DNA from: Ruegeria atlantica
GTDB taxonomy: Bacteria; Pseudomonadota; Alphaproteobacteria; Rhodobacterales; Rhodobacteraceae
Length of the DNA: 64,000 nucleotides
NCBI GenBank assembly: GCA_013032095.1
Contig: WQBJ01000009.1
Span: 62,001 to 126,000, forward strand
Direction: 5' to 3'
In this document: positions 51,406 through 54,012 of the stretch, one piece after another
How positions within the stretch are numbered: position 1 is the first letter of the stretch
How the letters are laid out: every line of letters begins with the position of its first letter
Made by a program: the position numbers and the translations under genes
Notes under the pieces: generated by a model
Database searches by the model: none
What the model saw: the letters and a program-made list of their open reading frames with translations, nothing else
What the model was told of the DNA's origin: nothing

Positions 51406-52494
51406 TCAAACTTCGACCTCAACCTTGCCGATCGGGTTTGAACAACAGGCAAGAATGTAGCCCGCTTCGACATCATCCTCGGAAATTCCGCCATTGTGGA
51501 CCATGTGAACCTCGCCAGCGGTCTTTTTGACCTTGCAGGTTCCGCAAACGCCAAAGGTGCAGCCTGACGGAATGTTCAACCCGACCGAACGCGCGGCGGC
51601 CAAAACAGTGTCGGTCTCGGCGACTTTGGCGGTAACACCAGAACTTGAGAACAAAATCTCGGCGCTGTTGTCATCGTCCAGAATGACATCATCCAGTTCC
51701 GGCTGATCCGCCTCGGTTTCCACAGGGGCACCGAAGCTTTCCTGATGGTAGTTGTCCATGTCAAAGCCCAGACCGGCAAGCGCATCACGCACGGCTTGCA
51801 TGAAGGGCTCCGGGCCACAGCAATAAACCTCGCGGTCGAGATAGTCCGGCGCCATGAGGCCAAGCATAAGCTGGTTAAACTGGCCCTGATATCCGGTCCA
51901 CGGGCGGTAAGGATCGGGTTCCTCAACAACAAACTTCAGGTCCAGACCGTGCGTCCGGCTGGCCATCTGCTCTAACCGCTGGCGGAAGATGATCTCTGAA
52001 GGCCGTCTGGCACAGTTGATGAAGACAACATCCAGATCGCGGCCTTCATCCCACATGCAGGTGGTCATCGACATCATCGGGGTGATGCCGGACCCGGCCG
52101 AGATGAACAGATATTTCCCCGCTTTGCTTTCTGCATTACTGAACAGCCCTGCGGGGCCAATGGCTTTCACCCGCATCCCAGGTTGTAGGTTGTCCAACAT
52201 CCAGCGTGTGCCGATGCTGTCGGGCTGGGCCTTGGCGGTGATCGTAATCGACCGTGGCCGCGAAGGAGAGGAAGAGATCGTATAGGTGCGATGCACCACC
52301 CCACCCGGCTGGTCCGGGGCCGGGATTTCCAAGGTCAGAAACTGTCCGGGCTGATACGCGAATTGCGCCCCCGAAGGAGCGCGAAACGAAAAGCTGGCCG
52401 TGTTTGGCATCTCGGGAACGACCGAAACGCATTCCAATGTTTCGCTGTCTTGCCAGACAGTTACTGGCGCGCTGAAATCTTTCATCGCCGTCAC
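51406..52494 (-). CDS. gbcB: Glycine betaine monooxygenase reductase-type subunit (GbcB-like)
   Basis: A 362-residue ferredoxin-NAD reductase: FAD motif RTYTISSS (69-76), NAD-binding SAGSGITPM (132-140) and CGPEPFM (226-232), and a C-terminal plant-type [2Fe-2S] domain with Cys312, Cys317, Cys320 and Cys350 ([17 protein letters not shown]). It passes electrons from NAD(P)H to the Rieske oxygenase encoded just upstream. A GTG start overlaps the oxygenase stop as GTGA; an ATG three codons in is the alternative. The order of domains is that of GbcB. Confidence 0.85.
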
Positions 52495-53714
52495 TCCGCC
52501 GCTATCGCGTCAGGTGCCAAGCGACCCGCCAGCGTGTTGCAGTACCAGTCAACGAACTGCAACACTCCGGATTCCTGAGTGACTGAATATGGGCCGGGCA
52601 CATAGGCCGGGCTGTTGATGCCCAGCTGATTGTCTTCGACGACTTGGCGATCTTCATCATTGGTAGCCATCCAGACCTCGGTCAGGCGTTTCAGATCGTA
52701 GTCGACATCCTCAACAGCGTCCTTATTAACCAGCCATTTCGTAGTGACCTCGGTTTCCGTCGGACTGATCGGAGTGACGCGGAAAACAATCGAGTGGTCT
52801 GCAAGAAAATGGTTCCAAGTAGTTGGGTAATGAAACTTCAGCAGCGACCCTGCATCCGCAAATGGCGATCGGCCCAACCAACGGCGCACAGCGGACTTGC
52901 CATCCATCGTATAGCTTTCCGCGCCCTCGTTCAGCGGCATTCGGGCCAGGCGGTATTGTCCGTCGCTATGCAGGTAGAACTGTGAGGGCAGTCCAGCGGC
53001 TTCGCAGCGATCGAAATGGGCCTGCATACGAGGTGGTGTTTCACCACCTTCGATACCTGTTATAGCAGGATCGTCGGGAAAGGTGCGGCACAGCGACGGG
53101 TGATTTCCACCGCAGTGATAGCATTCGCGGTTGTTTTCCCAGACCAGCTTCCAGTTGCCTTTCTCGATGATCGAGCTTTCAAAGGCGACCTTGGCATTGG
53201 CCAGATCATGCGGCTCAAGGTAGGGGCGAGCGGTGTTGGCAAAAGTGTCGAAGTCCGGTGCTTCTTCTGCCAGACAGATATAGACCAACCCGGCCAGCTC
53301 TCGACAGTGAACAGTTTTCAAACCGTGCTGTTTCGGGTCAAAGTCCGCCCCCATATCACGGGCCCAGAGAAGCGAGCCGTCCAACTCGTAGGTCCACTGG
53401 TGATACGGGCACACCAGCTTGGGCGCATTGCCCTTGGCTGCCTTGCAGATAACCGAGCCGCGATGGCGACAAGTATTGTGGAATGCCCGGATTTGATTGT
53501 CTGCGCCGCGCACAATGATCACGCGATACGCGCCGACGGTGTGGGTTACATAGTCTCCGGCCTTGACCAGTTCGCAGGCCGGAATGGCAAACAGCCAGTC
53601 GCGATAGTGAATGGTTTCAAGATCGACCTGAAAAACCTCCGGATCGGTGTAAAAGGCCTGTTCCAATGCGTAACCCGGTGTTCTGCGGGCCAAAAGGGTT
53701 TGAATATTTTTCAC
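52491..53714 (-). CDS. gbcA: Rieske non-haem iron oxygenase, glycine betaine monooxygenase type (GbcA-like)
   Basis: A 407-residue oxygenase. Rieske cluster ligands are Cys82, His84, Cys102 and His105 ([17 protein letters not shown]). The mononuclear iron site is in [16 protein letters not shown] (Glu197, His200, His205). The [20 protein letters not shown] and NRECYHC contexts closely recall GbcA, which demethylates glycine betaine to dimethylglycine with release of formaldehyde; stachydrine- and carnitine-type relatives are less likely alternatives. The start is the GTG at 53714 with AGGAG 9 bases upstream; the frame upstream runs through the riboswitch and is not protein. A cobalamin riboswitch 126 bases upstream suggests expression when B12 is scarce. 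Confidence 0.82.
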
Positions 53715-53721
53715 TTCTAGC

Positions 53722-53742
53722 TCTCCTGCCGCGCCCCGCGGC
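53722..53742 (-). promoter_or_regulatory. Hairpin abutting the gbcA ribosome-binding site
   Basis: GCCGCG-GGG-CGCGGC (53742-53728 on the minus strand) forms a 6-bp all-GC stem directly next to the Shine-Dalgarno AGGAG (53727-53723). It is placed to be part of the riboswitch expression platform, affecting ribosome access, though the ligand-dependent alternative pairing was not worked out. Confidence 0.4.
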
Positions 53743-53840
53743 GTTGCTTGGGCAGATGACAAGCGAGAGCAGTCCGGAGGCGTGCGAGGATCACGTCCGA
53801 AATCCGAGCCCCCACCGCCACCCGCGGTTTGACATATCTG

Positions 53841-54012
53841 AGAGGCTGGTTTCCGGACTTGGAAGGGGCTTGCGCCCGGTTTCGACACCTTCCCGGAATC
53901 CTCGTTCCAGTGGTTGATTGCCGAACCTGACCTTCGTTACCGTTGCGGGGGCAGTGCCGGAATTCCACCGGCTTCCCAATTCTCTGCTGCTTGAGAATCA
54001 AACAGCAGCACC
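53841..54012 (-). ncRNA. Cobalamin riboswitch 2 (upstream of gbcAB)
   Basis: On the minus strand it begins GGTGCTGC, has the core GGGAAGCCGGTGGAATTCCG followed by ACTGCCCCCGCAACGGTAAC, then ACCACTGG and GGGAAGG segments, and ends with the B12 box AAGTCCGGAAACCAGCCTCT at 53860-53841. All diagnostic segments of the cobalamin riboswitch are present in order and at normal spacing. The first gene downstream in its direction is the GbcA-like oxygenase, 126 bases away, with no other gene between. Cobalamin riboswitches normally lower expression when B12 is bound. Confidence 0.92.

Follow-up and report, generated by a model that had tools for sequence, protein, structure and literature searches.

In a stretch of 64,000 nucleotides (nt) from Ruegeria atlantica (assembly GCA_013032095.1, contig WQBJ01000009.1, positions 62,001 to 126,000), here called the window and numbered from its first letter, a cobalamin riboswitch lies on the minus strand directly before the gene of a Rieske oxygenase, which is followed by that of a reductase. 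We consider it likely, with a probability of about 0.7, that the riboswitch acts as an OFF switch on an O2-dependent, B12-independent alternative to B12-dependent betaine demethylation. When cobalamin is sufficient, glycine betaine and/or proline betaine would be demethylated by a corrinoid system (MtgB/MttB, MtgC and MtgD) yielding methyl-tetrahydrofolate. When cobalamin is low, the aptamer would be empty and the ribosome site of the oxygenase would open; oxygenase and reductase would then strip the methyl group as formaldehyde, at the expense of O2 and NAD(P)H but without any corrinoid. This supposes that the two routes are equivalent.

The riboswitch was identified with cmscan, run on positions 48–58 kb of the window against the 4227 families of Rfam 15. 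Two matches were returned in all, both to RF00174. The one before the oxygenase, at 53827–54030 (−), extends over the full model (1–189 of 189) with 120.6 bits (E 1.7e-30; the gathering cut-off of RF00174 is 31.5 bits). A sequence-only reading of the window had proposed a cobalamin riboswitch at this place, with its B12 box at 53860–53841; the covariance-model check bears out both, the box lying inside the match and reading AAGTCCGGAAACCAGCC at 53844–53860 (−) when aligned to RF00174. The element is a real cobalamin riboswitch, one of five in this genome (6.14 Mb in 272 contigs). The oxygenase is the first gene downstream of the aptamer on the minus strand, and 112 nt separate the end of the aptamer from its GTG at 53714. 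The interval originally assigned to the unit, 52491–54012, holds the oxygenase but leaves out the reductase and the 18 nt with which the aptamer begins.

The oxygenase gene spans 52491–53714 (−) and overlaps by 4 nt with the reductase gene at 51406–52494 (−). The mechanically called open reading frame (ORF) of 52491–53888 begins within the riboswitch; a plausible start predicted from the sequence is the GTG at 53714, located 6 nt after the Shine-Dalgarno sequence AGGAGAG (53721–53727, −), which is kept in most close relatives, and GTG or ATG occurs at the equivalent position in these relatives. Pfam recognises Rieske and Ring_hydroxyl_A domains in the oxygenase and FAD_binding_6, NAD_binding_1 and Fer2 domains in the reductase, which is GbcB-like by its match to NF058606 (357.9 bits; cut-off 500).

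The sequence-only reading had named a GbcA/GbcB-type pair. A betaine/stachydrine-group oxygenase accompanied by a reductase is indeed present, but the assignment to GbcA itself was not supported, since the score with the top NCBIfam model, GbcA NF058607, is 503.7 bits where the cut-off is 670, and the protein groups with Stc2. It is 80% identical to PDB 3n0q, the nearest solved structure (listed as a putative dioxygenase), and 68% identical to 3vca, which we take to be Stc2, as against 47–50% to GbcA sensu stricto, represented by the proteins of nine genomes that score over the NCBIfam cut-off. On a maximum likelihood (ML) tree of 98 rows, these nine GbcA proteins make up one side with full support. 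The window oxygenase falls into a 26-row clade (support 97/72) composed of 21 proteins with a riboswitch, four without and 3n0q, and this clade adjoins a 34-row clade containing Stc2. A position outside the betaine/stachydrine group had been named as an outcome speaking against the original proposal; the oxygenase stays within the group on this tree, so the objection does not arise. The group Vb signature, i.e. Asn at the position of CntA Tyr203 and Cys-X-X-Cys, is kept; the group Vb residues have been described for Stc2 and GbcA (excerpts of PMC7948474 and PMC10952381). Judged by domains, models, identity, tree and residues, the protein is probably a betaine N-demethylase of the Stc2/GbcA-like type whose substrate would be glycine betaine, proline betaine or both.

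The riboswitch-oxygenase unit recurs in related bacteria. Among 25 Ruegeria genomes (the present one and 24 others), five have an orthologue (at least 89% identity), each with a riboswitch. In a draw of 295 genomes of the family, 61 contained a homologue with an E value of at most 1e-150; 30 of these loci were fetched, of which 11 showed a riboswitch, one a partial riboswitch and 18 none. All 11 riboswitch-bearing oxygenases are at least 74% identical to the window protein. A further set of 80 loci from named genomes (loci of this and of the other sets have handles beginning with L) was scanned with an nhmmer profile derived from 18 riboswitches and gave 24 clear riboswitches, two marginal ones (L074 and L123, about 32 bits) and 54 loci with none; cmscan on 11 loci agreed, a recheck covering nine of the 24 clear cases. 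The clear bearers include Ruegeria, Shimia, Pelagimonas, Phaeobacter, Leisingera, Sulfitobacter, Loktanella and Marivivens, as well as two Roseibium, three Paracoccaceae (L120, L124, L127) and Labrys (L138). In clear cases the riboswitch is found about 114–182 nt before the aligned oxygenase start. The copies at L074 and L019 seem to be degenerating. Even among six remote homologues with 58–59% identity, four carry a riboswitch (100.7–102.9 bits), all from one alphaproteobacterial genus, and two sister sequences are without. No riboswitch was detected at the nine GbcA sensu stricto loci. The bearers fall in three places on the oxygenase tree, and parsimony on the window plus 78 rows of the 80-locus set (the two marginal loci excluded) requires eight changes, which implies repeated gain, loss or both. 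The survey of upstream regions that had been suggested thus yields a switch-gene link conserved in several lineages.

Loci with and without a riboswitch also differ in what surrounds them within about 6 kb. Members of any of ten clusters of regulator or betaine-type genes occur at 42 of the 54 riboswitch-less loci but at only three of the 24 riboswitch loci (L062, L066, L071; Fisher p 1e-7, with loci treated as independent of kinship). LysR genes (20/54), OYE-type flavin oxidoreductases (19/54) and TetR genes (12/54) near riboswitch-less oxygenases are each found at 0/24 riboswitch loci. These counts are lower bounds, because ORF picking found even the oxygenase in only 53 of 80 loci (18 of 26 with a clear or marginal riboswitch, 35 of the 54 others) and some loci end at contig ends. 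Representatives of some neighbour clusters were checked by profile; the other names come from reading the sequence or from sequence clusters.

B12-related neighbours were seen at six or more of the 24 riboswitch loci. A DUF4198-ABC cobalt-type transporter stands behind a divergent riboswitch in L062, nrdHIEF genes stand behind a riboswitch beside the oxygenase in L063 and L073, and nrd genes occur at L066 as well; in L082, to judge from ORF clusters, a riboswitch probably precedes an ABC gene resembling one found at another riboswitch of the R. atlantica genome (L007, below). Outside the 80-locus set, nrdHIEF genes also follow a riboswitch beside the oxygenase in L053 and L041, and the window adds its probable uptake operon (below). 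NCBIfam confirmed class Ib NrdE (L073), CobQ (L123) and MetH (L156). The enrichment of nrd genes near the oxygenase, 4/24 with against 2/54 without a riboswitch in the 80-locus set, was not significant (p 0.07). The gene metH lies beside the unit in L138 of the 80-locus set and in L053 and L156 from outside it; these are incidental sightings and not a survey of all loci. It stands on opposite sides of the unit in Labrys (L138, 5679–12759) and in the alphaproteobacterial L156 (3384–9925). In L053 (8331–9066) a riboswitch directly precedes metH, which is in two pieces there, with a small ORF in between, an unusual arrangement, since MetH is B12-dependent and would be an odd target for a B12 OFF switch.

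A corrinoid-dependent route had been proposed to exist elsewhere in the genome, and parts of one were found. There is a stand-alone MtgC-type protein (contig C24, position 104102), followed by a DUF1638-like ORF recognised by eye, together with MtgD-type (NF005719) and MtgE-type (NF005718) proteins, both over cut-off, and 16 matches to the MttB family, one of which (C262:57697–59184) is on the same contig as the oxygenase at a distance of about 55 kb. A B12-dependent class II ribonucleotide reductase is encoded too, and no MetH over cut-off was found in this genome. At the level of homologues, a B12-dependent alternative to the oxygenase therefore appears to be encoded. According to Mausz et al. 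2025 (PMC12478193), glycine betaine demethylation in the related R. pomeroyi depends on MtgC and MtgD, as does its methionine synthesis, and bacteria with GbcAB but without MtgBCDE have MetH. Where MtgC serves both purposes, the oxygenase might spare scarce MtgC-bound corrinoids for homocysteine methylation and in this way safeguard the supply of methionine, B12 switching the fate of the osmolyte's methyl group between methyl-tetrahydrofolate and formaldehyde, and this by repeated gain or loss of the control; we put this forward tentatively.

The stand-alone MtgC-type protein was present in all 24 riboswitch genomes of the 80-locus set and in both marginal ones, compared with 15 of 23 genomes tested without a riboswitch. 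It was also present in 15/15 riboswitch genomes tested outside this set, and in the remote group in four of four genomes with but neither of the two without a riboswitch. MttB-family proteins occur in 24/24 riboswitch genomes, and full MetH in 6/24 against 15/23 without a riboswitch. The raw Fisher p values (0.0016 for MtgC, 0.008 for MetH and 2e-5 for two or more MttB) should not be taken on their own, as related genomes are counted many times.

As to the mode of control, a scan of 53600–54200 showed no minus-strand terminator-like site. Terminator-type control was therefore rejected, and B12 would more likely repress the oxygenase at the level of translation. A kissing interaction between loops L5 and L13, the latter belonging to the expression platform, is a feature of cobalamin riboswitches. 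Here, the stretch CGAGGAT in L5 (53898–53904, −) is complementary over 7 bp to ATCCTCG (53785–53791, −), a putative L13 loop located 53 nt after the B12 box, with one of 100 mononucleotide shuffles being as good. Of 16 placeable sequences, 13 had their best L5 match 52–57 nt downstream of the B12 box; the regular expression placed both landmarks in 16 of 25 sequences, and the nine in which it failed are left out of this count. In some relatives the loops have changed and still pair (GAGGAC/GTCCTC in L067 and L068, AGGAGG/CCTCCT in L078), yet the pairing was matched by at most five of 100 shuffles in only four of 23 scored sequences (25 given, two without a recognised L5). A hairpin-forming stretch, GCCGC-GGGGC-GCGGC at 53728–53742 (−), directly precedes the Shine-Dalgarno sequence and is a candidate for a sequester element; by visual comparison, most close relatives retain it. 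The fold of the expression platform as a whole was no better than that of shuffles (z −0.63).

Several observations weigh against an OFF switch between two demethylation routes. The clade of the window oxygenase contains four riboswitch-less rows (L081, L084, L091, L114), a protein 79% identical to that of the window is without a riboswitch (L015, a draft genome), and in two Salipiger loci the oxygenase itself lacks a riboswitch although one is present in the vicinity. The MtgC-type protein of R. atlantica reaches 198 bits where NCBI's nearest MtgC model has a cut-off of 370. After correction for kinship, the association of riboswitch and MtgC was not significant, with only three independent pairs, and the same was true of MetH absence and of MttB number, likewise with three pairs. 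MttB proteins were found in 28 of 29 control genomes of the family without a close oxygenase homologue, hence their presence is weak evidence, and any MttB paralogue is no more than a candidate, by sequence, for a link to betaine. MtgC, moreover, occurs in the 15 riboswitch-less genomes mentioned and in one of four true-GbcA genomes tested (G466); having both routes therefore does not force a switch.

Other explanations for the unit can be considered. B12 shortage might open betaine demethylation so as to feed B12 synthesis, in which glycine leads to 5-aminolevulinate and methyl groups enter the S-adenosylmethionine-dependent corrin methylations. The R. atlantica genome has CobN and CobJ, and at L123, a locus with three strong riboswitches, the pair stands amid cobW-like and DUF4198/ABC-like genes (both by eye) and cobQ, although the riboswitch directly upstream of the oxygenase is marginal there (31.8 bits); industrial B12 production is also stimulated by betaine (excerpt of PMC8123684). 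Other neighbours, nrdHIEF and metH, are not B12-biosynthetic, however, and CobN is absent from five of the 24 riboswitch genomes (R. profundi, Shimia aestuarii, Marivivens niveibacter, Loktanella sp. IMCC34160 and Pacificoceanicola onchidii), compared with one of 23 without a riboswitch. CobJ is absent from the same six genomes and present in eight others checked, so that the five are predicted B12 auxotrophs. That they keep the riboswitch-oxygenase unit favours control of an isozyme over precursor supply, which we regard as improbable. More improbable still is a passive riboswitch that came from a B12 gene next door and has no pathway logic. At 4/24 riboswitch loci there is a further cobalamin riboswitch no more than about 6 kb away, so duplication would be easy, but capture of this kind would not be expected to produce one arrangement three times over the tree, in proteins as little as 58% identical and at about 114–182 nt, nor to go along with the lack of the regulators found beside riboswitch-less homologues.

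A third proposal, a sub-case of the OFF switch that does not exclude it, is that the enzyme demethylates proline betaine (stachydrine), its B12-dependent partner being an MttB-family protein for proline betaine and not MtgB. The higher identity to Stc2 than to GbcA agrees with this, and at 19 of 22 positions fixed differently between GbcA and the riboswitch clade, the majority of the Stc2 clade sides with the latter. Conversely, three of four positions fixed differently between the riboswitch and Stc2 clades match GbcA, and the position of Stc2 Ala223, reported to lie at the bound proline (FEBS J., excerpt), is Thr in 21/21 proteins of the riboswitch clade, as in 5/9 GbcA. The OYE-type and ProC-like neighbours of riboswitch-less loci are likewise found at none of the 24 riboswitch loci. 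This specialisation is conceivable and somewhat doubtful.

The second RF00174 match in the window (48914–49120, −; 135.9 bits) lies 4.7 kb from the first and precedes a probable corrinoid uptake operon (45689–48865, −) encoding a DUF1636 protein, an ABC ATPase, a periplasmic binding protein and a FecCD permease. The best model for the binding protein is 'putative F420-0', its match to BtuF being weak. Elsewhere in the genome, riboswitches precede a cob operon (L008; CobN and CobJ by profile, DUF1636-, CobW- and CobG-like ORFs by eye), a ZnuA/zinc-type ABC transporter (L007, contig C240, riboswitch at 9056–9267, −) and a small uncharacterised ORF (L006, contig C135, riboswitch at 10314–10533, −). 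The transporter might carry cobalt, and the small ORF is possibly a new B12-related protein. ORF clusters in common with L007 lie beside the oxygenase in L054. Upstream of the first riboswitch, 54137–60956 encodes a glutamate-semialdehyde-aminomutase-like aminotransferase, an aldehyde dehydrogenase, a class V aminotransferase, an SDR protein, a cupin and a BhcR-like IclR regulator, which looks like an amino-compound catabolic cluster. The possibility that the riboswitch serves this aldehyde dehydrogenase/aminotransferase operon was rejected: those genes are unshared among 20 family loci and the window, whereas oxygenase and reductase are shared. A second Rieske oxygenase of the genome (L167, C1:7257–8384) is 36% identical and scores 278 bits with the GbcA model; such matches (34–37% identity) occur in 14 of 25 genus genomes, and none of the five cobalamin riboswitches is on its contig.

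The control logic is known from metE and nrd, and the betaine oxygenase is apparently an undescribed target of a known riboswitch class. Sun et al. 2013 name a regulon class 'isozymes of B12-dependent enzymes' (excerpt of PMC3766115), and metE is among the isozymes controlled by cobalamin riboswitches (excerpt of PMC2211319). As there, the same riboswitch family precedes a B12-free alternative with a B12-dependent route in the genome. Unlike there, the two routes differ in reaction (methyl transfer to a corrinoid as opposed to a proposed oxidation by O2 to formaldehyde) and the pathway is osmolyte catabolism instead of methionine or deoxynucleotide synthesis. The oxygenase shares with Stc2 of S. 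meliloti the group Vb residues Asn199, Cys202/Cys205 and Trp353, and differs by Thr in place of Ala223, by riboswitch control and by the lack of LysR or OYE-type neighbours. With GbcAB of Pseudomonas and Chromohalobacter it has in common the pairing of a group Vb Rieske oxygenase with an FAD/2Fe-2S reductase, but it belongs to a separate clade. The proposed B12-dependent counterpart, MtgBCDE of Ruegeria pomeroyi (excerpt of PMC12478193), is a corrinoid methyltransferase system unrelated to Rieske oxygenases, with homologues of C, D, E and the MttB family in R. atlantica; in the main text of that paper 'riboswitch' occurs once, within a SAR11 reference. The link had been thought undescribed, and among the literature matches listed no cobalamin riboswitch before a betaine oxygenase was found, although the supplementary cobalamin regulons of PMC3766115, which cover 15 Rhodobacterales genomes, might list one.

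If the OFF switch operates as proposed, riboswitch 'isozyme' control would reach beyond biosynthesis to osmolyte catabolism. It would give a reason why some roseobacters have MtgBCD homologues alongside a Rieske demethylase, and the riboswitch would mark, in genomes and metagenomes, bacteria able to consume betaine without B12. Betaines belong to the major osmolytes of the sea, where B12 is often in short supply. The supply of B12 would thus decide the fate of betaine methyl groups, which would either enter the folate pool via a corrinoid or be burned with O2.

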